The notes under the pieces: generated by a model
What the model saw: the letters and a program-made list of their open reading frames with translations, nothing else
What the model was told of the DNA's origin: nothing
Database searches by the model: none
Origin: Moraxellaceae bacterium
Lineage (GTDB): Bacteria; Pseudomonadota; Gammaproteobacteria; Pseudomonadales; Moraxellaceae
Length of the DNA stretch: 64,000 nucleotides
Assembly (NCBI GenBank): GCA_020697295.1
Contig: JAJFBF010000043.1
Location: 16,684-80,683, forward strand
Reading direction: 5' to 3'
Made by a program: the position numbers and the translations under genes
Shown here: positions 10,509 through 36,364 of the stretch, one piece after another
Layout: every line of letters starts with the position of its first letter
How positions within the stretch are numbered: the first letter of the stretch is position 1

Positions 10509-12707
10509 TCAAGCCCCGCCCGCCGCCGCCCGCGCCCGGTGCAGTTTTTTATAACTCTCGATCAGGCGCAGATGCCGGTCCAGCCCCTCCAGTTTCAGGC
10601 TCGTTGGCGTCAGCCCGTAAAAGCGCACGCTGCCGTCCACTGATCCCAGCGCGGCGTCCATGCGCTCGTCGCCAAACATCCGGCGGAAATTGCCCGTGTA
10701 GTCGTCCAGTTCCAGGTCATCGGCCAGTGTCACTTCCAGCACCAGGTTCAGGCACTGGTAAAACAGCCCGCGCTCGACGGTGTTGGTGTTGTACTGCAGG
10801 AAGGCCTCGACCTTGTCCTTGGCTTCCTCAAACCGCTTGAGGGCCAGGAATACCAGCAGCTTCAATTCCAGGATCGTCAGCTGGCCCCAGGGCGTGTTGT
10901 CGTCGAACTCGATGCCGATCAGCGTCTTGATGTCGGCGTGCTCATCCTCCGCGCTGTCTTCCAGGCGTTCGACCAGCGCCGCCAGGGCGGCATCGTCCAG
11001 GCGATGCAGGTTCAGGATGTCGGCGCGGAACTGCAGCGCCTTGTTGGTGTTGTCCCAGACCAGGTCCTCCACCGGGTAGATTTCCGAATAGCCGGGCACC
11101 AGGATGCGGCAGGCGGGGGCGCCCAGATGCTCATACACGGCCATGTACACCTGCTTGTCCAGGCCCTCCAGGATGCCGAACAGCGTCGCCGCCTCCTCGG
11201 CATTGGAGTTCTCGCCCTGCCCGGAAAAATCCCACTCCACGAATTCAAAGTCTGATTTGGCGCTGAAAAAACGCCACGACACCAGGCCGCTGGAATCGAT
11301 GAAGTGCTCCACAAAGTTGTTCGGCTCGGTCAGCGCGTTGCTGTTGAAGGTCGGCGCCGGCAGGTCGTTCAGGCCTTCAAAACTGCGCCCCTGCAGCAAT
11401 TCCGTCAGGCTGCGCTCCAGCGCCACCTCCAGGCTGGGGTGCGCGCCAAACGAGGCAAACACCCCGCCCGTGCGCGGGTTCATCAAGGTGACGCACATCA
11501 CCGGGAAGCGGCCGCCCAGCGAGGCATCCTTCACCAGCACCGGAAAGCCCTGCGCCTCCAGGCCACGGATGCCGGCGACAATGCCGGGAAATTTCGCCAG
11601 CACATCGGGCGGCACGTCCGGCAACGCCAGCTCGCCTTCCAGGATCTCGCGCTTCACCGCGCGCTCAAAGATTTCCGACAGGCACTGCACCTGCGCTTCG
11701 GCCAGCGTATTGCCCGCGCTCATGCCGTTGCTCAGGTACAGGTTCTCGATCAGGTTGGAGGGGAAGTACACCACCTTGCCATCGGACTGGCGGACAAAGG
11801 GCAGCGAGCAGATGCCGCGTTCCGTGTTGCCCGAGTTGGTGTCGTAGAGATGCGAGCAGCGCAGTTCCCCGTCCGGGTTGTAGATCTTCCGGCAGTGGGC
11901 ATCGAGCAATTCCCGCGGCAGCGAGTCCGCGCGGCCCGGCTTGAACCATTTCTCGTCCGGGTAATGCACAAAGTCGGCCGTGGCGATGTCCTCGCCCCAG
12001 TACTGGCCGTCATAGAAGAAGTTGCAGTTCAGGCGCTCGATGAATTCGCCCAGCGCCGAGGCCAGCGCGCTTTCCTTGGTAGCGCCCTTGCCATTGGTGA
12101 AGCACATCGGCGATTGCGCATCGCGGATATGCAAGGACCACACGTTCGGCACGATATTGCGCCAGGAGGCGATTTCAATCTTCATGCCCAGCCCGGCCAT
12201 GATGCCCGACATGGTGGCGATGGTCTCTTCCAGCGGCAGGTCCTTGCCCGGAATGCGGGTGCTGGTGCCGGAGGCCAGGTTCGGCATCAGCAGCGCCTGC
12301 GCATCGGCATCGATGCTCTCCACATGCTCGATCACGAATTCCGGGCCGGCCTGTACCACCTTCTTGACCGTGCAGCGCTCGATCGAGCGCACGATGCCCT
12401 GGCGGTCCTTCTCCGACATGTCGGCCGGCAACTCCACCTGGATCTTGAAGATCTGCCGGTAGCGGTTTTCCGGATCGACGATGTTGTTTTGCGAGAGGCG
12501 GATATTGGCGGTGGGAATGTCACGCGTCTGGCAGTACAGCTTCACAAAATAGGCCGCGCACAGCGCCGACGACGCCAGGAAATAGTCGAACGGCCCCGGC
12601 GCCGAACCATCGCCCTTGTAGCGGATGGGCTGGTCGGCCACCACCGTGAAGTCATCGAACTTCGCTTCCAGCCGGAGGTTGTCGAGAAAGTTGACCTTGA
12701 TTTCCAT
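10509..12707 (-). CDS. OsmC-YcaO fusion protein
   Basis: N-terminal OsmC-like segment (MEIKVNFLDNLRLEAKF...) followed by YcaO-like domain; likely ATG at 12707, upstream extension is low complexity. Confidence 0.85.
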   Translation of the reverse strand: MEIKVNFLDNLRLEAKFDDFTVVADQPIRYKGDGSAPGPFDYFLASSALCAAYFVKLYCQTRDIPTANIRLSQNNIVDPENRYRQIFKIQVELPADMSEKDRQGIVRSIERCTVKKVVQAGPEFVIEHVESIDADAQALLMPNLASGTSTRIPGKDLPLEETIATMSGIMAGLGMKIEIASWRNIVPNVWSLHIRDAQSPMCFTNGKGATKESALASALGEFIERLNCNFFYDGQYWGEDIATADFVHYPDEKWFKPGRADSLPRELLDAHCRKIYNPDGELRCSHLYDTNSGNTERGICSLPFVRQSDGKVVYFPSNLIENLYLSNGMSAGNTLAEAQVQCLSEIFERAVKREILEGELALPDVPPDVLAKFPGIVAGIRGLEAQGFPVLVKDASLGGRFPVMCVTLMNPRTGGVFASFGAHPSLEVALERSLTELLQGRSFEGLNDLPAPTFNSNALTEPNNFVEHFIDSSGLVSWRFFSAKSDFEFVEWDFSGQGENSNAEEAATLFGILEGLDKQVYMAVYEHLGAPACRILVPGYSEIYPVEDLVWDNTNKALQFRADILNLHRLDDAALAALVERLEDSAEDEHADIKTLIGIEFDDNTPWGQLTILELKLLVFLALKRFEEAKDKVEAFLQYNTNTVERGLFYQCLNLVLEVTLADDLELDDYTGNFRRMFGDERMDAALGSVDGSVRFYGLTPTSLKLEGLDRHLRLIESYKKLHRARAAAGGA

Positions 12708-13203
12708 GCGGGTGCCTTGTGTCGGGTTTTCGGGCCTGCTGTTCGCGGGCCGGCAGAGGTTGTCTGGCGCAGCGTGCCTGTCAGGGCTTGCCCGGCAGAA
12801 GTTGCCTGGCAGGCCTGTTCGGGCAGGGCTCGTCTGGCGGGCGTACTCCAGCTGAAGTTTTCCGGCCGGGCTCACCGGGAAAGGGGCGCCAGGCAGGGTA
12901 CGCAGTGCAGGTGCGCCAGGCACAATGCGCAATGCAGGATACGTCTGGCCGGGTACGCCGGGCACAGGCTGGCTGGGCTGAAGCTTGCTCAGGGGAGGGC
13001 CGACCGGATTTTATCCCTGTCCTTGTGGAGGAGGTAAGGCCTGTGCGCGCCGCTGAAAAACGGCCAAGTGCTCTTGCACAAATAGCCTGACATGAGCCTG
13101 GGCACCGGTCCAGCGTGAAGAGGGAAGGAGTGCAGCAACTAATCCCGGGGAGCAAACCTGAAAGTGCTCAGCCACAGCAGCAATTCTTCAGTCGGCAAGG
13201 AAT

Positions 13204-14448
13204 TCAACTCAGCTGCCCCCCGCAAAGCCCCTCAACCCGCCGCGGAAAACCACTCCAGTCCGGCGCCACCACCGCCTGCCCGCCATAAGCCTCCCCCAGC
13301 GCATTCGCGGCCTCCCACAAGAGCCGGTAGGGCGCCGGCGCCTCCGCCATCTCGCGCGCCGTCCGCTTCGCGTCAATCGTAGCCTTGAGCTCGCGCTCCT
13401 TCGCCTCCGCATGGGCCTGGGCCCTCGCCACCACCAACTGCATCAGCACGTCACGATCCGCGTCCATCATCCGGCCGCCGGGGCACAACCGCGCCTCACC
13501 GTTTGCCTCCAGCCGGTCCAGCAACAGCGGGAGCACCTCCTCACTGACAACTCCCCGCTCGTTCAGGCCATGAGGGGCAAGCTGCCCCGAAAAGTTCCCG
13601 GGCTCCAGCGCATCCCAGAGCAGCTTGGCAGTGATCATCGGCATGGCAACGCCCGCAAAATGCCGCTCCATCAATTCGCGCAGCAGCACGCGGTCCGCCT
13701 CGCGCAGCGGCTCGTTCGCGGCAATGAGGGGAGACGCGTCCACGCCCCTGGCCAGCCCGGTGATCCATCCGGAAAGCCGGGGCGCATGGCCTCGCGAAGG
13801 CTCCTGATGCCGGGCATAAGTCCATCCCGTTCCCCAGAGGCGTTCCCGCTGTTGTTCCGCGCGCACCAGTATCCCGCCCAACTCGCCGGCGCTGGCCCCG
13901 CGACCCACTGCCAGCCCGGCGGCGTATTCCTCCTGCCAGAAATGCGCTTCCGTATGGGCGAGAACAAAAAAGCCGGGCAGCAGCGCCACCTGCAGGACCA
14001 TCCCCGCCGTGAGCCCGCGCGGCCAGCGCCGGCCCTCGCGCAGGGCCCGGTACTGCGCCAGCGGCGCGAGGACGATAAAGGGTAAAAATACCGCACAGGT
14101 CAGCACCGCCACGACCAGCGACGCCCCGCCCGGAGGCCCCTTGAAAAAGCCTGCGCGTTCGCCCGGCGAAGCGGCCATGCCGACAAGCAGAAGCAGGATC
14201 GCCACGGCGATACCGAGCCCGGTGACGAGCGCCGCCCGGTGGCGAAAGAGCCGGGCCAGCAAGGCCACGTCCACGATCACGCCACAGGCGACGGTCAGCA
14301 TGAGGGCCAGCAGCAGGCCAATCCCGTCCAGCCGCATCTGGCCATAACTCGCCTGTGCGGCGGCGGACAGCGCACACAAGACGAGGAGTAGGCAGGCCTG
14401 CGGCAGGCGGCGCGTCAACACAATGTCAGCCTCAGCGCTCCCGTCCAT
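13204..14448 (-). CDS. Hypothetical membrane protein
   Basis: Multiple N-terminal hydrophobic segments; likely ATG at 14448; 17-bp overlap with upstream GFA gene. Confidence 0.65.
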   Translation of the reverse strand: MDGSAEADIVLTRRLPQACLLLVLCALSAAAQASYGQMRLDGIGLLLALMLTVACGVIVDVALLARLFRHRAALVTGLGIAVAILLLLVGMAASPGERAGFFKGPPGGASLVVAVLTCAVFLPFIVLAPLAQYRALREGRRWPRGLTAGMVLQVALLPGFFVLAHTEAHFWQEEYAAGLAVGRGASAGELGGILVRAEQQRERLWGTGWTYARHQEPSRGHAPRLSGWITGLARGVDASPLIAANEPLREADRVLLRELMERHFAGVAMPMITAKLLWDALEPGNFSGQLAPHGLNERGVVSEEVLPLLLDRLEANGEARLCPGGRMMDADRDVLMQLVVARAQAHAEAKERELKATIDAKRTAREMAEAPAPYRLLWEAANALGEAYGGQAVVAPDWSGFPRRVEGLCGGQLS

Positions 14449-14779
14449 TGTAATGCTGCACCGGCAGCGCCTCCGGTTCGATCCCCTCCAGGCAGCGCAC
14501 ATTGACCGCGGCCATGGCCTGGCCATCGGGCCCGGGGGCTTCGCCAAAGGGATGGATGCCGCAGCGCGGGCAGAAGTGATGCTGGATCACGTGCTGGTTG
14601 AAGGTGTAGGTGCTCATGGCCTCGGCCGGCGTCAGCAGGCGCAGCTGCGCGCGCGGCACAAACCACAGCAGCGCGCCCTTGCGCTGGCAGAGCGAGCAAT
14701 TGCAGGACAGCACGGTCCCGATCTCGCCTTCCGCCTCAAAGGCGATCTGGCCACAGTGACAGCTGCCGCGATACATCAT
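14432..14779 (-). CDS. GFA-family (glutathione-dependent formaldehyde-activating-like) protein
   Basis: GSCHCGQIAFEAEG..SCNCSLCQRKGALLWF..FCPRCGIHPF zinc-binding cysteines. Confidence 0.88.
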   Translation of the reverse strand: MMYRGSCHCGQIAFEAEGEIGTVLSCNCSLCQRKGALLWFVPRAQLRLLTPAEAMSTYTFNQHVIQHHFCPRCGIHPFGEAPGPDGQAMAAVNVRCLEGIEPEALPVQHYNGRER

Positions 14780-15201
14780 GAGCTTGCTCCTTGTTTGATG
14801 CCCGCCTCCACATGGCGACGGAAGTTCTCGAGAATCGCCTGCCAGCCCTCGCGCTGCTGTTCGGGCGAGAAAGTGGTTTCAGCCTCGAACGTGACCTCCA
14901 CCCGCACGCCATCGGCGTCGCTGGCAAACGTGACCTGCGCACTGCGATCGCCAAAGGCGTACTCGATGCGCTGCTGCGGCACGATGCGCGTGTAGGTGCC
15001 CGCAAAATCAAAACCCATGCTGCCGTCCTTCGCTTCCATGCGCGAGGAGAAAGCGCCGCCCTCGCGCAAGTCGACAGTGGCGGTGGTGGTATGCCAGTCC
15101 GCGTTGGCGGCGTTCCACTGCACGATGTCGGCGGGCGTGGTGTAGGCGCGCCAGACTTCCGCAACGGGCGCCTGGACGGTGGTGGAAACGCTGATTTTCA
15201 T
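14776..15201 (-). CDS. SRPBCC / AHSA1-family protein
   Basis: MKISVSTTVQAPVAEVWRAYTTPADIVQWNAANADWHTT; 4-bp overlap with GFA gene. Confidence 0.85.
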   Translation of the reverse strand: MKISVSTTVQAPVAEVWRAYTTPADIVQWNAANADWHTTTATVDLREGGAFSSRMEAKDGSMGFDFAGTYTRIVPQQRIEYAFGDRSAQVTFASDADGVRVEVTFEAETTFSPEQQREGWQAILENFRRHVEAGIKQGASS

Positions 15202-15245
15202 GGGGTCCCTCCGTGTGGAGTGTCAAAAATCCTGGGGTGCATGTT

Positions 15246-15974
15246 TCAAAAAAAGCCGAAGCGCTTTTTGGCGGTATTCTTCCGGTTCTCGAGGATAAGG
15301 TCGGTGATGCCGTGCTTGTCGAAGCGGTCCAGCAGCGCATCCGAGCCCTTCCTGAGCTTCAGGTTCATCTCCTCCTCGTACAAGGGGACGATGCTCATGA
15401 AGCTGATGGTTTTCTCCGCATTGATCTCCAGGCTGTGGAAGCCCTGCGGCACCGTGACGGAGGGCAGGATAAGCGCGCCGCACAGCTGCGTGTTGTCCGC
15501 AAAGGGCTCGGCCGGATCACCATTGGGCAGGGTATGGCCCCAGCCCAGCCACGTGCTGTACTTGTGCGGAAAGCGCGCGAGAAACTTGAGCTGGCGCACC
15601 GGCCAGTACCACTGCTCGTCTTTCAGGGCTTCTTCGTTGAGCTGCCAGTATTCCGGCAGCGTGACCATGAGCTCCAGGTAGCGCGGCACCTCGGCGCCCT
15701 CCGGCACTGTCATGGGCAGGTCGCTCATGCCCGAAGTGACCAGGGTATGGAAGGGGCGCTGCGGCGTCGGCTTTACGTGATGCACATCAATATGGACGGT
15801 ATCGGACAGCACTTCGTGAAAGACCATGTCCACCGTGCCGATATGGCGCTCGATATGGTCCGAGATCTGCTCGATGCATTCCTCGCCCTGCGCTGCCTCC
15901 CATTCCTTCTCGCCATCCGTGTAGCGGAAGATCGGGGCGCCGGAGAGGGACACCAGCTTCTCGTCGTGGCTCAT
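15246..15974 (-). CDS. Suppressor-of-fused (SUFU)-like domain protein
   Basis: DVHHVKPTPQRPFHTLVTSGMSDLPMTVP...RYLELMVTLP typical SUFU-like segment. Confidence 0.7.
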   Translation of the reverse strand: MSHDEKLVSLSGAPIFRYTDGEKEWEAAQGEECIEQISDHIERHIGTVDMVFHEVLSDTVHIDVHHVKPTPQRPFHTLVTSGMSDLPMTVPEGAEVPRYLELMVTLPEYWQLNEEALKDEQWYWPVRQLKFLARFPHKYSTWLGWGHTLPNGDPAEPFADNTQLCGALILPSVTVPQGFHSLEINAEKTISFMSIVPLYEEEMNLKLRKGSDALLDRFDKHGITDLILENRKNTAKKRFGFF

Positions 15975-22282: not shown

Positions 22283-22768
22283 CTAAAAGTGCCACAACAC
22301 CAAAAGCATGAATCCAAGGGGGCCGGAAACGTAAAGAGTGAGAATGAGGCCATTGTATTTAAGCAGTCTTCCCTCGTTATCTGCCTTAATGCTCTTAAGC
22401 ATGCCTTTCCTGAGAAAGTAGCTCTTCGCAAACGAAAAATTCCCCAACATGATTACGGCACCACTGATTAGCTGCCGCCAACCTCCGTCAAAGAAGAAAT
22501 CCCTCAAACCCAGCGCAGATATCAGAAGAATCCAGACGGAGAGAAAAGCCAGTCCAGCAGCCAGGGTGACAAATTCAATGGCACTGTTAAGTCGTTCCTG
22601 ACTATCTTCAGCGCCTTCTGGTCTTAGCCCTATATACGAGCGAAAGAACAAGTCTCTATATAGTCTTTCCACCGCTCCCTCCCATATTAATGAGCCGCCC
22701 CTGATGTCGTTGAGGATGCTTGGTTTGAGTCGAGCGAATCGGAGTCGCCACCCAAGGCGAGCCGTCAT
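22283..22768 (-). CDS. Hypothetical membrane protein
   Basis: 161 aa, hydrophobic segments, lower-GC region, directly downstream of the transglutaminase-like ORF. Confidence 0.6.
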   Translation of the reverse strand: MTARLGWRLRFARLKPSILNDIRGGSLIWEGAVERLYRDLFFRSYIGLRPEGAEDSQERLNSAIEFVTLAAGLAFLSVWILLISALGLRDFFFDGGWRQLISGAVIMLGNFSFAKSYFLRKGMLKSIKADNEGRLLKYNGLILTLYVSGPLGFMLLVLWHF

Positions 22769-22776
22769 TGATCGAG

Positions 22777-23568
22777 CTAAAGGCTGATCCGCTTCTTATT
22801 GAAAGGATCGAAGATGACAATGATGTCGGATCTGGACTTTTTGACGCCAAGCGAACTATTAGAGGCTGTAGGTTCGGCTGCATAGCAGTATTTTCCGTCA
22901 ATCTTCATCATCGACGTTGTAAGTACAGTTAAGTCGTCACAATCGCCTGCTCCCGATCGGATAGTTTGTTGCGGAGACTTTACATAATCTCTTTCACCAG
23001 GAGCTTGTATGGGATCGCTCCTGTACTCGAAATTTGACGTGACGTAATTGACGATTTTAGTTGCCACACATGCTTCATCGCGTCCTCCACATCCGCGAGA
23101 TATTTCCGTAGCACGTAGATTCACTTCTTCGTCTCTGGATCTTACTGCCTGAAGATATATCCCATATTTTGTATCGTCGCGCAGTCGAGAGAATTCCCGG
23201 ATGGGACCAAATCCAGTCAGTGATTTGAAGACGCTTGCGGCTGCAACCCGAGGAGACACTCTTCCATCCCTTATCTCATCGAAATGCTTAAATCCAAATA
23301 AGGCGGTCACGAACACTGCCGATACGATAAGAGCCCGAAGCAAAGCGCGCCGCAGGAACTGGATGAACAGGAGTGAAGCGACCCCTCCCGTCATGAGAAG
23401 GACCTGGTGGTCGGGTGACTCCAGATTCCGCACTCCCCACCGAAGTGCGAAGAGGAGCGCCATGACAATGCCGAATGAAGCAATCCAGCCAGGAGAGCTG
23501 TCACTGTCCGCTTCTTGGGCACTTTGGGGGAGTGGTGGTTGAGTCTGGTCATTCATAAGGGGCGACAA
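22777..23568 (-). CDS. Membrane-anchored transglutaminase-like protein
   Basis: N-terminal TM segments; C-terminal SPQQTIRSGAGDCDDLTVLTTSMM resembles the transglutaminase catalytic-Cys motif. Confidence 0.6.
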   Translation of the reverse strand: MSPLMNDQTQPPLPQSAQEADSDSSPGWIASFGIVMALLFALRWGVRNLESPDHQVLLMTGGVASLLFIQFLRRALLRALIVSAVFVTALFGFKHFDEIRDGRVSPRVAAASVFKSLTGFGPIREFSRLRDDTKYGIYLQAVRSRDEEVNLRATEISRGCGGRDEACVATKIVNYVTSNFEYRSDPIQAPGERDYVKSPQQTIRSGAGDCDDLTVLTTSMMKIDGKYCYAAEPTASNSSLGVKKSRSDIIVIFDPFNKKRISL

Positions 23569-24145: not shown

Positions 24146-24162
24146 GGGTGGATTAATGCTCC

Positions 24163-24256
24163 GTTACTGTCTGTTGAAGCGGTACAAGACCACGCGCCGC
24201 CGGCCTCTGGTTTTTGCGCTGTAGGAGCCGCGTCGGCCTTGAACGAGGGGTTAGGC
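24163..24256 (-). repeat. attC-like site 1 (terminal, degenerate inner R site)
   Basis: Minus strand GCCTAACCCCTCGTTCAAGGCCGACGCGGCTCC...CAACAGACAGTAAC. Confidence 0.7.
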
Positions 24257-24345
24257 CGTGGCCGAAGGCGGATTTATGGTCTTGAATTCTTAAGGAGCCC
24301 TCTGGCTTTAGCCCCATATAAAGCACCGAACACAACTTGAGCCCT

Positions 24346-24858
24346 TCAGCCGACGAGCTTCTTAGCTCTTAACTTCACTAATCCCACCCAGCCCGGCATA
24401 TCAGGATCTATGCCCATTGCTCTCAACGCGGCCTTCACTTGCCTCTCTGCGATCTCATAGCTTATGCCTGATGTTCTATCTGGCAGCTGTGGTGCCACAC
24501 ATAAAGGTTGATTGGTAGTGATTCCGCCGCAATTGACTGGAGGCGATGAACTTAGCGCAAGCTGCTTATGCTCGACCTCTAATTGCTCAATTAGTTTCTC
24601 AGTATTCTCAATCAAAAGGCGGCGCTCTTCATCAGTTAGCCGACGGCCTTCGGAAGAGCCATAGTACGGCTTTGGGTCTCGCACCCCACTGCTGCCGTAC
24701 AATTTTTTGTAGCACTCGCCTCCGAGGACCTTAAATGACCCACTCTCTAGGATGACATGAATTTTCTTGAAAACCGGCCGATTGCAACCAGCAGCCTGGC
24801 AGGCAATCCGATTCCTTTTGTCGACCTCCACAATTGCCATAAGGCTGTGTTCCGGCAT
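24346..24858 (-). CDS. Cassette-encoded hypothetical protein (possible Zn-binding Cys cluster)
   Basis: 170 aa between attC-like sites; CQAAGCNRPVF...GGECYKKLYG. Confidence 0.65.
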   Translation of the reverse strand: MPEHSLMAIVEVDKRNRIACQAAGCNRPVFKKIHVILESGSFKVLGGECYKKLYGSSGVRDPKPYYGSSEGRRLTDEERRLLIENTEKLIEQLEVEHKQLALSSSPPVNCGGITTNQPLCVAPQLPDRTSGISYEIAERQVKAALRAMGIDPDMPGWVGLVKLRAKKLVG

Positions 24859-24880
24859 TTCCTCATCCCTTGGGATTTAA

Positions 24881-24941
24881 GCCCTAGCATTGGAGTTATG
24901 ACCGCCCGCGTAGCGGGTCGACCTCGAACGAGCTGTTAGCC
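24881..24941 (-). repeat. attC-like site 2
   Basis: Minus strand GGCTAACAGCTCGTTCGAGGTCGACCCGCTACGCGGGCGGTCATAACTCCAATGCTAGGGC. Confidence 0.85.
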
Positions 24942-25286
24942 CTGATGCCCCTTAATAAAAGAGATAATTTCTTCAGCAGACGAGCTTTGGGCGGCTTCAA
25001 GCAGCTCTCCAAGCACTGAAACAGCCAGCTCAAGGCTAATTTTGCCTTCTTTGTATTGCTCAAGACCGGCGGCAATAAAGCTTCCAACGATGAGCCTTTC
25101 CTGCTCGTTGAGCTCAGCCCGCTCATCTTCGCCCTCAAAAATTAGGAACGTATAGGGCGGCTCGTGATGAACCCTTTTTAAGTGAGATGGCTGCCAATCA
25201 TCGCCAATGACTATTTCGGCATCAAAGGGAATCTCCTTTTCTAAGAGTTGCAATCTCTTAATAAGTTCTGATGACTTCATTGCCAT
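24936..25286 (-). CDS. Cassette-encoded hypothetical protein
   Basis: 116 aa between attC-like sites 2 and 3; stop falls inside attC 2. Confidence 0.65.
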   Translation of the reverse strand: MAMKSSELIKRLQLLEKEIPFDAEIVIGDDWQPSHLKRVHHEPPYTFLIFEGEDERAELNEQERLIVGSFIAAGLEQYKEGKISLELAVSVLGELLEAAQSSSAEEIISFIKGHQG

Positions 25287-25296
25287 GTCTCATAAG

Positions 25297-25383
25297 GGCT
25301 AACGTTGAGTGAAGGCCGCGCGCAGCCGCCCTTTAAATGATGGCGCTGAAGGAGCCGCGTCGGCCTTGAACGATTGGTTAGGC
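25297..25383 (-). repeat. attC-like site 3
   Basis: Minus strand GCCTAACCAATCGTTCAAGGCCGACGCGGCTCCTTCAGCGCC...GGCCTTCACTCAACGTTAGCC. Confidence 0.88.
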
Positions 25384-25387
25384 GGCG

Positions 25388-25966
25388 CTAGAAGAGATGA
25401 TCAGCCATGTACTTTCCAATTACGCCAATCAATGCGCCGCCAACTGCTATGGCAACCTTGAGGGGAATGGAGTTGGCTTTATTAAAATCATCGCGAAGCC
25501 TATCAATAGTTTTTGTTTGCTCAGAAACAACGGCAGAAAGCTCTTTGATTGCCGTGTCGCTTGAGTCATTTTTACGGGCGTGCCCAACAATTTCATCTGC
25601 TGTGAGCGGCCGAGTATGGACACCAATTCTACGATAGTAGCCGCCTCGAGTTGCGATTAAGTGCGGAGCCGCTGCGACGCTGACGATCACAATATCGCGA
25701 CCGCCAATTTCATGAACCTCCACATTGATGTCAATGCGAGGGGACAGATATCGCAGCGCCGCATCAATTGCAGATTTTGCGCGACTGGCATTAACGCCGA
25801 TGAACTGAGCAGGCTCCTTTACACCTAGAATGAGGGCTCCGCCCTTGGCATTGGCGAACGAAGCTAGCTGATTGGCTATCACATCGGGAGGGGGAACGGA
25901 AGATTTCAGCTCAAGAGTCTCGTCCTCTCCACGAGCAATACGTTTCTCAATTTCAGATATTTCCAT
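25388..25966 (-). CDS. AlbA_2/Schlafen-like domain protein with C-terminal TM helix
   Basis: DETLELKSSVPPPDVIANQLASFANAKGGALILGVKE...GGYYRRIGVHTRPLTADEI; hydrophobic tail IPLKVAIAVGGALIGVIG. Confidence 0.8.
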   Translation of the reverse strand: MEISEIEKRIARGEDETLELKSSVPPPDVIANQLASFANAKGGALILGVKEPAQFIGVNASRAKSAIDAALRYLSPRIDINVEVHEIGGRDIVIVSVAAAPHLIATRGGYYRRIGVHTRPLTADEIVGHARKNDSSDTAIKELSAVVSEQTKTIDRLRDDFNKANSIPLKVAIAVGGALIGVIGKYMADHLF

Positions 25967-25990
25967 CGGCTCAGAAATCCTTTTTATAAA

Positions 25991-26075
25991 GCCTAACGTT
26001 GGAATTCAGCCGCAGCGGTAGGCTGTCAGCTGGAATGCCTTTTTAAGGCGGGCGCTTTACGTGCAAGAGTTCATA
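25991..26075 (-). repeat. attC-like site 4 (degenerate outer core)
   Basis: Minus strand ...GGCTGAATTCCAACGTTAGGC at one end; opposite core poorly conserved (TATGAAC). Confidence 0.55.
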
Positions 26076-26086
26076 AAGAAAGGTTC

Positions 26087-26665
26087 TTATTCCATTAGCC
26101 TGAACCAGTCTTTAACTGCTAAATTTAGCCTTACAATTTCATCTTCTGCTAATGGGCAGCAATGAGCGATTGGGCCTCGGAGCTGATTTAGACTGGTCAT
26201 GATTTTTGAGAATGCTTTCGGATTCTTAAATAGCCCGGAAAATGCATCCCAGCTATCTTGCACAATAGATGTCAGTTCGCCAAAGGTTGTATAATCAATC
26301 TTAAGCTCCGATCTTTCAGTGAATCCTGATTCGGCTTCCCTCTTTATATTTAATTCGACATTTTTCTTAATGTCCTCTCGTACTTTTAGTTCCCACCAAT
26401 TGTCGGAGTATGTCTCCTTCATTATTTGTACGATTAAGCTTCTAATGGATTTTTCTAGGCAATAAAATACTTCGTAATGCCTGGCCATCTCTTTGGCCTC
26501 TTGTCTAAACGCGGCATCAAATTGGGCGTAATAATCTTGCTCTTTTGCCGCTTCTTTTTCGTGCCTTAAAAGATCAATGCTGAGGCCGGCCTCAATTTTA
26601 TCAAGGGAATTCTCTGCAAGAGAATTTGATAATACGAATATTTTTATCCGTTCCTCGGTATCCAT
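26087..26665 (-). CDS. Swt1-like HEPN-domain protein (putative RNase)
   Basis: ARHYEVFYCLEKSIRSLIVQIM...NQLRGPIAHCCPLAEDEIVRL; RxxxxH HEPN motif. Confidence 0.68.
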   Translation of the reverse strand: MDTEERIKIFVLSNSLAENSLDKIEAGLSIDLLRHEKEAAKEQDYYAQFDAAFRQEAKEMARHYEVFYCLEKSIRSLIVQIMKETYSDNWWELKVREDIKKNVELNIKREAESGFTERSELKIDYTTFGELTSIVQDSWDAFSGLFKNPKAFSKIMTSLNQLRGPIAHCCPLAEDEIVRLNLAVKDWFRLME

Positions 26666-26666
26666 A

Positions 26667-27290
26667 TTAATCCTTTAGTAGGTTTTCTCTGAGAGATTTA
26701 AATATTGCATTATATACAGAGGGGTCGTCTGTTTTTGGGAGGACCAAGTTAATTGTATAGTTGAGGCCTAAATGAAGTTTTTTCTGTATTTTAGTGTCTT
26801 CTTCATTGCCTGTGGGTTTCTTGGCTGGGGGCTCGGTCTGCTCAATTTCCCCGGGTGCGGAATCAAAGTCTGCTAGTTGTTTTGCATTAAAAAAAGTGGA
26901 AACAATGTTTTCCACAACTCTGGAGTCGTGTGGCTCTCCAGTAGCTTCCATAACCAAGCCTTTAAAAGCTCTTTTGTCTAGATCGTGACAGTATTCATTT
27001 CGCGAGTAGAGCTCTGAATATCCAATTTTTATTGCTTTAGCTAAGGATGATTTTGAGGATGATGGGTTGCGAAATGACTTATACAAGTGAGTCGGAGTTC
27101 CGTCACTATTTAGTAGGCCTGCTTTTTTAGCCCAAGAAATAAAGGTTCGATAGTTTCCCCCTTTGAATCCAAGCTTAGTGGACAGAAAATCTGAGTTGAA
27201 GTTTTCAGGTGTTCCAGCCTCTTTGATTTTTTCCAATATCTTTGGGATGGAGCCAGGGGCAGACATGTAGGGAATATTTATCTGAGCCAT
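26667..27290 (-). CDS. DUF5343-like protein
   Basis: MSAPGSIPKILEKIKEAGTPENFNSDFLSTKLGFKGGNYRTFISWAKKAGLLNSDGTPTHLYKSFRN; 1 nt between its stop and the next ATG. Confidence 0.72.
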   Translation of the reverse strand: MAQINIPYMSAPGSIPKILEKIKEAGTPENFNSDFLSTKLGFKGGNYRTFISWAKKAGLLNSDGTPTHLYKSFRNPSSSKSSLAKAIKIGYSELYSRNEYCHDLDKRAFKGLVMEATGEPHDSRVVENIVSTFFNAKQLADFDSAPGEIEQTEPPAKKPTGNEEDTKIQKKLHLGLNYTINLVLPKTDDPSVYNAIFKSLRENLLKD

Positions 27291-27336
27291 ACTTAAAATT
27301 CCTTAAGGTTATTGTGGGAGTCCGCCTTCTCTTTAA

Positions 27337-27386
27337 GCCCTAACTTTTGAGCTCAGGGCCGTCGACCCTGCAGCGAATGGTTGGGC
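27337..27386 (-). repeat. attC-like site 5
   Basis: Minus strand GCCCAACCATTCGCTGCAGGGTCGACGGCCCTGAGCTCAAAAGTTAGGGC. Confidence 0.8.
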
Positions 27387-27398
27387 CCAAATTCTCCG

Positions 27399-28112
27399 CT
27401 ACCTGTTAGCGTCATTGGTGAATCCCAGGAATGAAAAGTCAATTCCCAGTTCGGCTGCTGACGAAATTTGCTCACGAAACTCATCATACACGCCAGGCAT
27501 ATGGATGCCTCCAAACTCCGCTCGCGATATAAAAGCCCCATTCAATTGCTCCTCAGTTGCCTTCATTAAATTAACTAAGACGTGGCGATAGAACGAGCAA
27601 ATAGCAGACAAAACCAATAATGAGCTCGATCTAGACCAGAACATGGCTACTTTGGGAATGCCGAGTTGCTTCCAATGCTCTCCTGTCATTGAGATTGGAA
27701 CCATCCATTCGGATCCGGCATCTTGAGGAAGGCCGATGCAGGCCTCAATTGCAGTCAATTTTGAATGTACAAACTCGTTTCGTGCCTTGATTAGTTCAGC
27801 AATCTTTTGGACCTCAGAGCAGCCGCGATCTAGATCTCCAAACCCTTGGAGACGGAGCGCAATTTCAACCTTTGGGATCGGCGATAGCTTGTCGAGCTCC
27901 TCAATGAGCTTCTTAGGGGACTCAGGAAGTGCCAAGAGGCAATTTGCGAAGCATTCAACGCTGAGTGCCGAAGCTCCGATCGATGCCCGCGCATATCGGC
28001 TACTAAGAAATGGGTTTGTCTCATTCACAGCCATCTTGTGCTGAAAGATCGCATCTGCCAGCAAGTCGAAGAAAGCTATGTATCTATAGGTCGCTGGAAT
28101 TGGATGCGTCAT
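27399..28112 (-). CDS. Cassette-encoded HEPN-like protein
   Basis: 237 aa; EVQKIAELIKARNEFVHSK contains the RNxxxH signature. Confidence 0.55.
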   Translation of the reverse strand: MTHPIPATYRYIAFFDLLADAIFQHKMAVNETNPFLSSRYARASIGASALSVECFANCLLALPESPKKLIEELDKLSPIPKVEIALRLQGFGDLDRGCSEVQKIAELIKARNEFVHSKLTAIEACIGLPQDAGSEWMVPISMTGEHWKQLGIPKVAMFWSRSSSLLVLSAICSFYRHVLVNLMKATEEQLNGAFISRAEFGGIHMPGVYDEFREQISSAAELGIDFSFLGFTNDANR

Positions 28113-28123
28113 CTGCTATTGGT

Positions 28124-28182
28124 GCCCAACGCTAGAGTTAAGGTGGCGGCGGAGGCGTCAACCTTGAACGACTTTTTAGGTC
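28124..28182 (-). repeat. attC-like site 6 (59 bp)
   Basis: Minus strand GACCTAAAAAGTCGTTCAAGGTTGACGCCTCCGCCGCCACCTTAACTCTAGCGTTGGGC. Confidence 0.88.
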
Positions 28183-28802
28183 GAACCAGTTCCAAGAAGA
28201 GTCTGTACTTCATGCCTTGTTAGGGTTTTATTTGACTCAATCTGCTGATCAATTGAAAAGTAGCGGATGCTGGGTTTGTTTTCTGACCTAAATTTACTGA
28301 GATCAGCTGCAGATTGATCTGAAAGTTCACCATTATGGGGGCTTACTATGTTTGGTTTACCCGAGTCTGATGTCCATATATAGAAAGTTATTCTATAAGT
28401 TCCAGGAGCGAACAAAACATGCGCTTGTTTCCAGCCGAATAGCACGATCCTGTGTTCAGATGATTTGGCAGCTGTGGCAAAAGGACCTGCAAAGGTTTCT
28501 CTATAGTATTTCTTATTGCTGTAGTCGTAGTTATTGAACTCTGTCCATTCTATATATTGAGATTTCGACTGGTCTCCAGGAAAGGAGATTAAGACGGCGC
28601 ATTTGTGAACTATGCCGGTTCGCTGAGATGAATTCACGAATGTAATGGGGGCATATAATTCAAATCCGGCTTTTGTGTGACAAAATCCGAACGTACTTCC
28701 TGGATGGAATGAGATTTTTGGACGCTGAAACTGTGTTAAGTATAAGGTAATAGAAGACACCAAAAGACTAAGGGCTGCGATATACAATGAGTATTGCGAC
28801 AT
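28176..28802 (-). CDS. Cassette-encoded hypothetical protein with N-terminal TM helix
   Basis: MSQYSLYIAALSLLVSSITLYLTQFQRPKISF...; stop lies within attC 6. Confidence 0.65.
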   Translation of the reverse strand: MSQYSLYIAALSLLVSSITLYLTQFQRPKISFHPGSTFGFCHTKAGFELYAPITFVNSSQRTGIVHKCAVLISFPGDQSKSQYIEWTEFNNYDYSNKKYYRETFAGPFATAAKSSEHRIVLFGWKQAHVLFAPGTYRITFYIWTSDSGKPNIVSPHNGELSDQSAADLSKFRSENKPSIRYFSIDQQIESNKTLTRHEVQTLLGTGST

Positions 28803-28819
28803 TTCTATTGTTTTCCTTG

Positions 28820-28860
28820 GCCTAACATTGAGTAGATCCCAAAAGTGGGGCTTAGTACTT
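28820..28860 (-). repeat. Terminal att-like site (truncated attC or attI-like)
   Basis: Minus strand GTACTAAGCCCC...GATCTACTCAATGTTAGGC; single well-conserved core. Confidence 0.4.
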
Positions 28861-29074
28861 CTTCGTGCGGTGTCGCCTATCTCGGCGTCTTATCCGCAAC
28901 TGATTGAATATACGAAGGAGTATTCAAAATGGGCGACGCTTTCGGGAACTGCCCTGGCAAGATGTGCCCCGCATCTGCCCCGACTCTAATACGCATGGCC
29001 TCACTAGGTAATCCGTATTTCCCGCAACTTCTGCACCGCCCCAAGGGCCTTCCGGAAGCCGCAGGAAGGCCCCC

Positions 29075-29716
29075 TTATGTGCCAGCAGCCAGCGCCGCCA
29101 ACGACCGCCCCAGATTCTCCCGCCCCCGTCCCTCATACCGCTCCACAAACTCCCGAGTACTAAACAACCGCCCCCGCCCCAGAAACTGCTGCAATACGGC
29201 CATCCGCCGCACCCGAAACACCCTCTCCGGCAAATGCCCATACTCCAGCCTTACCTGCCTCTCATACTCATCAAACCGCTCCGCCGGCGCCCCCAGAATC
29301 CAAAGGTCGATATCCACCATCACCTCGGCATCGATCCCCACCGGGCTCGCGTTATGGCAGGTCGCCATGACCAGCGCGGCCACCCGCTCGGCCATCGCCG
29401 GCGGCAGTCCCGCGGCCAGGATCTCTGCCTGCGCCCAGTCGGCGCTGCGGGCCTCGTTGTCGGGGCGGCCCAGGTCGTAAATGGCGTCGTGGAACCACAG
29501 GACGAGACGGACCTCGAGCGGGTGCTCGGGCAGGTGGGCCAGGGTTTTAAAATTGGCGAGGCATTCGCCCAGGTGCTGCAGGGTGTGGTACTGGCGGTGG
29601 GCTTCGCTGTAGCGGGCGAGCAGCGCGTCAAAAAGGCCGGGGGCCGGCGTTGCGCCGGCCTGTTGCCACAGGCTGTCCCAGTCGTCCTTGAGGGTCTTGT
29701 GCGCGTCCTGCGCCAT
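29075..29716 (-). CDS. HD-superfamily phosphohydrolase-like protein
   Basis: YSEAHRQYHTLQHLGECL...VLWFHDAIYDLGRPDNEARSADWA. Confidence 0.85.
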   Translation of the reverse strand: MAQDAHKTLKDDWDSLWQQAGATPAPGLFDALLARYSEAHRQYHTLQHLGECLANFKTLAHLPEHPLEVRLVLWFHDAIYDLGRPDNEARSADWAQAEILAAGLPPAMAERVAALVMATCHNASPVGIDAEVMVDIDLWILGAPAERFDEYERQVRLEYGHLPERVFRVRRMAVLQQFLGRGRLFSTREFVERYEGRGRENLGRSLAALAAGT

Positions 29717-30160: not shown

Positions 30161-30270
30161 GGGCACGACCCTGGGGAGATGCTCCTCAGCATAAAGGGGT
30201 AATGTTCTTTCACAATACCTGAGACCCATTTTTTCAGGGGTGGGCTGCCCGGCGGGCCTGGCCTGGTCGG

Positions 30271-30310
30271 AGCAGGGCGGGGCAGGGCGGGGCAGGGCGG
30301 GGCAGGGCGG
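30271..30310. repeat. 10-bp G-rich tandem repeat (ggcagggcgg, 4 copies)
   Basis: agcagggcgg ggcagggcgg ggcagggcgg ggcagggcgg. Confidence 0.9.
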
Positions 30311-30486
30311 GTCTGCCGGCGGGCGGCGGGCCCGGCAGCGGCGGAACCCGGCGCGACTCTTGCTTGAGTCCTGCGCTGCAAGGCCAGTGGCCTGCCCCGG
30401 GCCTGCGCCGTGTGCGCGGGCCTGCCCAGCCGGGTGGCAGGCCGCGGCCCATCCATCCTGTCCTGCACCAACACCGGGAGCCCCGC

Positions 30487-35898: not shown

Positions 35899-36005
35899 AA
35901 TGCACGGGTTCAGCCCGGGCCCCTGCCACGGACTTCCGGCGACAGCGCTTTCAGGGGACAATACGCGCCCCTGAAATGCACGGGCGCTGCCCGGACCCCT
36001 GCCAT
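35854..36005. repeat. 76-bp tandem duplication, about 80% identity
   Basis: ggccttccggcaacggcgct..cctgaaatgcacggg..ccctgccac / ggacttccggcgacagcgct..cctgaaatgcacggg..ccctgccat. Confidence 0.9.
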
Positions 36006-36246: not shown

Positions 36247-36264
36247 GCCCCTGGCGGCGTCCGC

Positions 36265-36305
36265 TCAATAAAAAAGCCCGGCATTGGCCGGGCTTTTTTA
36301 TTGAG
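36265..36305. terminator. Rho-independent bidirectional terminator
   Basis: caataaaaaagcccggcattggccgggcttttttattg. Confidence 0.9.
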
Positions 36306-36364
36306 CCTGCTTTTTTATTGAACCTGCGGAAGCGGGGGCCGCTGCCTGGCGAAGCAATCGTCGC

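Follow-up and report, generated by a model that had tools for sequence, protein, structure and literature searches.

The window, a stretch of 64,000 nucleotides that forms part of contig C2 in a Moraxellaceae draft genome (3.7 Mb in 145 contigs, estimated contamination about 5%), carries an array of gene cassettes on its minus strand. Seven minus-strand ORFs lie within 24.3–28.8 kb, where the G+C content falls to 41–57% over 22–29 kb (41–55% over 24–29 kb) versus about 65% in the surroundings. This bears out the AT-richer block of ORFs described in an earlier sequence-only reading of the window. Notwithstanding that contamination estimate, the flanks on both sides of the array match the genus. 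Six cassettes were delimited and an attI site stands at their head (Table 1). Of the components of a complete integron, the attI beside the first cassette, the complementarity between cassette starts and their own R'' and the bottom-strand folds are present, and intI is absent.

Table 1 Features of the cassette array in the window (R1 is the covariance model described in the text)
Feature	Position	Strand	Description
attI	28821..28900	-	core TTTGGGATCTACTCAATG^TTAG at 28843-28822; upstream part to about 28900
Cassette 1	28130..28825	-	ORF 28176-28802, 208 aa, N-terminal hydrophobic segment; attC 28124-28182
attC	28124-28182	-	R1 16.5 bits, E 0.02
Cassette 2	27344..28129	-	ORF 27399-28112, 237 aa; short attC 27338-27387
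attC	27338-27387	-	R1 19.6 bits, E 0.002
Cassette 3, two genes	25997..27343	-	ORF 26667-27290 then ORF 26087-26665; attC 25991-26049
attC	25991-26049	-	R1 24.9 bits, E 5e-5 (second best)
Cassette 4	25303..25996	-	ORF 25388-25966, SLFN/AlbA_2 domain, C-terminal hydrophobic segment; attC 25297-25384, best-preserved
attC	25297-25384	-	R1 49.0 bits, E 1e-12 (best)
Cassette 5	24888..25302	-	ORF 24936-25286, 116 aa, VC1380-family match below cut-off; attC 24882-24942
attC	24882-24942	-	R1 13.6 bits, E 0.16
Cassette 6	24160..24887	-	ORF 24346-24858, 170 aa; terminal attC 24169-24257, R' end decayed
attC	24169-24257	-	R1 18.1 bits, E 0.0065; terminal, R' end decayed
Chromosomal gene at attI side	29075..29716	-	"HD" of the sequence-only reading; no Pfam match

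The attC sites were searched with a covariance model (R1) built from 14 attC of the two intact integrons of the same genome (L007 and L008), in whose hairpin 95% of the cells are paired, with covariation between pairs and two extrahelical bases. Since no window site went into the model, R1 provides a fair test. It found six attC, all on the minus strand between 24169 and 28181 and spaced by less than 2 kb, and the sole R1 match elsewhere in the window, at 35938, reached 12.6 bits (E 0.34). A lack of significant covariance-model matches had been named as the outcome that would speak against the array, and the best site has an E value of 1e-12. Of the seven attC-like sites listed in the sequence-only reading, the five called good were all recovered, the one at 24163 with a lower quality than claimed there, since its R' end is broken. 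The site at 25991, called degenerate, is the second-best R1 match, and the one at 28820 is not an attC, as described below. Stop codons inside attC, also reported there, are seen for the ORFs at 24936 and 28176, the former (cassette 5) in R''. Our first palindrome scans overlooked the majority of the window sites, as the R'' and R' in an array come from different cassettes, and the covariance model replaced them.

Within arrays, the R' half of an attC belongs to the next cassette, so a cassette start should pair with its own R'' one cassette away. For the six cassettes, this complementarity gave a diagonal sum of 36, which was equalled by 6 of 720 permutations. The sites at 25297 and 27338 fold as bottom-strand attC hairpins in place, and more strongly with their own cassette start, and those at 28124 and 24882 form the full R stem once they are rebuilt with it. 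For 25991 and 24169, the attC hairpin is not the minimum-energy fold even after rebuilding, so the predicted bottom-strand hairpins with extrahelical bases hold for the former four sites and not for the latter two. The R' triplets, at which cleavage occurs, are intact at 28826, 28130, 27344, 25997 and 25303, and the two distal ones are broken. In the attC of cassette 1, R'' is changed from AAC to AAA and R' is intact.

The attC at 25991 is 93% like the resident attC of the G006 integron, the one at 28124 is 80% like an attC of a G002 orphan array, and the one at 25297 is 76–84% like sites in G000 (C14 and C17). The attC types of the window thus resemble several different congeneric arrays, suggesting a mosaic origin. 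No cassette gene is common to the window array and the resident or other fetched arrays of the genus.

Just upstream of cassette 1 the minus strand reads TTTGGGATCTACTCAATG^TTAGGCC, with the attI crossover between 28826 and 28825. Five attI of the genus that adjoin IntI (L007, L008, L070, L071 and L073) have the form TTTGRKGYCYASTTAACG^TTAG. A 22-nt weight matrix made from these five attI gave 27.2 bits at the window site, the best of 128k positions, and 12.0 bits at the next position. The attI-specific half of the matrix, absent from attC, scored 14.7 bits at the window site (1 of 127,978 positions) and -7 to -22 at true attC ends. An attI profile HMM of about 100 nt (nhmmer, 369 kb searched) matched the window site over 80 nt with an E value of 1.7e-6, followed by the next match at 2.2. 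In the whole genome, the attI pattern with two mismatches allowed was found at three sites, which are the window and the two intact integrons; the reversed control of this looser pattern also gave three matches, so the HMM is the stronger evidence. The window core has about three differences from the other attI. The weight matrix and the HMM therefore reject the site at 28820 as a degenerate attC (true attC ends score below -6 in the attI half) and, by its sequence, it is an attI of the type that adjoins IntI in the genus.

Several cassettes carry defence-like cargo. In cassette 3, the ORF at 26667-27290 is a DUF5343 protein (Pfam) and PDC-M34A, and the ORF at 26087-26665 is a HEPN_Swt1 protein (Pfam) and PDC-M34B with an RGPIAH motif. 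PADLOC matched both subunit profiles of PDC-M34 (E 3e-50 and 7e-40). As in this PADLOC candidate, the two matching genes adjoin each other, and here the putative anti-phage system is borne as an integron cassette; PDC-M34 was not named in the literature searched. The HEPN motif (R-x4-6-H) is present as Rx4H, and its Arg163 and His168 are invariant in 18 sequences. The DUF5343 and HEPN genes are adjacent in 23 of 25 other loci, which span Bacteroidota, Proteobacteria, Clostridia and Patescibacteria with identity up to 70%. Such identity in distant hosts argues for wide transfer of the pair, and in Terasakiispira an attC stands directly before it. A search for DUF5343 on plasmids gave no match, and its structural model (pLDDT 82, acceptable) had no convincing fold match in the PDB.

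The proteins of the outer cassettes have relatives on plasmids, a weak one (23%) in Vibrio coralliilyticus for cassette 1, and those of Variovorax, Ralstonia, Comamonas and others for cassette 6. The cassette 2 protein has a 35% relative on Delftia plasmids, no relative among 369 genomes of the class and no Pfam match. Its RNEFVH sequence is an HEPN-like Rx4H motif. The AlphaFold model of this protein (237 aa, no alignment) was too poor for use (pLDDT 36), so it is the motif that suggests an HEPN-like protein. By analogy, a phage-defence role of the cargo is plausible. Integron cargo with defence roles is described in published work that PMC12444791 cites, and the present cargo adds to the evidence for candidate anti-phage genes in integrons.

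The array lies at a variable chromosomal spot. The gene order purU - araC - HIT - variable segment - araC - desaturase is conserved across the genus. Its variable segment ranges from about 70 bp (G008) through a few kb (most genomes) and about 8.5 kb (G003) to about 21 kb in the window genome. In G003, the orthologue of the HD gene adjoins other cargo without attI or attC, where an OLD-like AAA/TOPRIM nuclease gene and further ORFs replace the cassette array (L035 5725-10257). Different cargo at conserved flanks indicates that the spot exchanges cargo. The HD/HIT spot is therefore a hotspot of exchanged, variable cargo. Model R1 found attC at the same locus in none of seven relatives, and the cassette array there is specific to the window lineage among the genomes compared. 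The locus comparison proposed in the sequence-only reading thus gave conserved flanks, variable cargo and an array confined to this lineage.

No IntI was found in the window or on contig C2 with TIGR02249, and tblastn with six IntI gave nothing significant in the window and no intI remnant, in agreement with the earlier statement that no tyrosine-recombinase ORF was seen in the window. The same genome has full-length IntI on C30 and C14 and weak partial matches on C125, C139 and C20. Both full-length proteins can be aligned over their whole length with 2a3v, an integron integrase of solved structure, and each gene precedes cassettes whose attC measure about 85 nt. In the C30 integron (L007 6530-9992), several cassettes are poor in ORFs and nearly repeat one another in sequence, and one of them is cut off by the contig end. 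Further array ends lie at contig ends of this genome (L034 2670-3603 and L033 10361-10437, on C17 and C81), and these arrays may belong to the two intact integrons as their distal ends.

The attI pattern was found at 18 sites in nine genomes, versus 4 for the reversed pattern. A full IntI adjoins 5 of them, an N-terminal piece of intI adjoins 2, and 11, the window included, have no IntI trace as judged within the fetched stretch, the weakest (L117, HMM E 0.004) being uncertain. Both intI stumps are in G007; one (L111) keeps 40 aa at 82% and is then cut, and the other (L105) is shorter with an in-frame stop. The array search added an orphan attI in G001 (L096). Several orphan attI are followed by attC, and most orphan cores have 0–1 mismatches to the pattern. 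In G003, some arrays are headed by attI and no IntI was found at E 1e-30; this genome also has a longer attC array (L087 1346-6203, on C9) with eight R1 matches, some of them weak, and no clear attI in the fetched stretch. One attI-led array of G003 lies at the tesB locus. None of seven congeners has an attI at the tesB flank, including G000 with a 93% identical tesB (an eighth flank is partial), so this attI arrived with the insertion. In all six orphan loci examined, the gene upstream of the attI reads toward it, as expected if intI was removed from the order gene - intI - attI - array. The relic state of the window thus recurs at many other loci of the genus, with truncated intI intermediates at some, and keeping the cassettes while losing the enzyme looks like a habit of the genus.

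We conclude that the locus is very probably a relic chromosomal integron, with an attI and six cassettes, that has lost its intI. An attI at the head of the array points to a relic integron rather than to cassettes scattered into a random site. Two labels were proposed in the sequence-only reading, CALIN or chromosomal integron without its former intI, and each is apt. As to the origin, the evidence points to the latter, since the attI is of the IntI-adjoining type and related loci keep just an N-terminal piece of intI beside such an attI. That picture of an array with a lost intI stands, and it had missed the attI, the two intact integrons and the defence-like cargo. As the window holds no intI remnant, we infer a former intI upstream of the attI, and the order of events, from the attI and from the other loci. 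An integron platform (intI and attI) would have come to lie beside the HD/HIT genes, at a spot that exchanges cargo. At least six cassettes would have accumulated behind the attI in one orientation, with attC types resembling several arrays of the genus, and intI would then have been lost, leaving the attI and the array. A resident full-length IntI could in principle excise cassettes in trans, since five of the cleaved R' triplets are intact.

The locus may also be a station that lacks its own intI, with cassettes still going in and out in trans through the enzymes of the two intact integrons. Such a reading concerns present use and is compatible with a relic integron, but we consider it unlikely. 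Two intact IntI are at hand, the orphan attI cores are mostly well kept and the array mixes attC types like those of different congeneric arrays; however, no cassette gene is shared with the resident arrays or the other fetched arrays of the genus, the window attI core and the two distal R' sites are mutated, and G003 has orphan arrays with no detectable IntI. Extended to the genus, its species would hold several attI-headed stations lacking intI, dispersed downstream of chromosomal genes, on which one or two intact integrases act in trans. Such a distributed integron is similarly doubtful; if true, loss of intI at a station would stabilise its cargo, here defence-like, and yet keep that cargo reachable.

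It is improbable that intI never stood here and that the attI and cassettes came as a block copied or moved out of an intact integron, whether through homologous recombination or by means of another element. The complete lack of intI beside a preserved attI, at a spot that exchanges cargo among species, would suit such a transfer, but the ORFs scanned beside the array included none recognised as a transposase or recombinase, and the truncated intI at other loci fit loss in place better. Less probable still is the insertion of cassettes, one at a time, at a secondary chromosomal site other than attI (attG) by a resident IntI acting in trans, giving a CALIN where no integron ever stood. Insertion at attG is well established as a route (Loot et al. 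2024, as cited in PMC12901181) and the genome has two full-length IntI that could use it. An attG border, however, is neither attI nor attC, whereas at the proximal border here stands a copy of attI, matched over 80 nt, rather than a short degenerate site, and in the comparable tesB case the relatives with an empty locus have no attI there. Chance inverted repeats can be dismissed. The short sites at 24882 and 28124 are weak individually, but the clustered same-strand matches of an independent model, the pairing with own R'' and the attI at the predicted end together refute a chance origin.

A degraded integron or CALIN is a known kind of locus, and the attI-led orphan arrays across the genus are the less expected part. 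Like the CALIN of IntegronFinder 2.0 (PMC9024848), the window array has at least two clustered attC in a row, here found with the own-genome model, and no intI nearby; it differs in being headed by an identifiable attI. IntegronFinder 2.0 detects no attI outside class 1 integrons (PMC9024848), so such relics are recorded as anonymous CALINs. The chromosomal integrons of Xanthomonas likewise show repeated integrase loss at the genus level, with arrays kept at several spots and displaced CALINs (PMC12444791). The intI of Xanthomonas is consistently downstream of ilvD (PMC12444791), whereas in the present genus the intact platforms lie by pckA, near ychF/pth and elsewhere, and the attI was shown directly at integrase-less arrays. 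Integrase-less arrays could originate by loss of the integrase or by the arrival of cassettes at secondary sites, and an attI at the array head argues strongly for the former in the window case. A census of attI is a simple and transferable test on the scale of a whole genus.

Other parts of the window were also inspected. Past the far end of the array, at 22283-23568, two AT-richer minus-strand ORFs (161 aa, and a transglutaminase-like one of 263 aa) lie in a stretch where no attC was detected, and are possibly older foreign cargo or cassettes with decayed attC. The variable segment further encodes, at 10512-15974, a YcaO protein that includes an OsmC domain, as well as a protein with a SUFU domain. 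At Rfam gathering thresholds, a tRNA was the sole match in the window. A short tandem repeat of GGGGCAGGGC stands upstream of the HIT gene (30270-30312), and overlapping terminator-like hairpins surround GCTCAATAAAAAAGC at 36263-36323.
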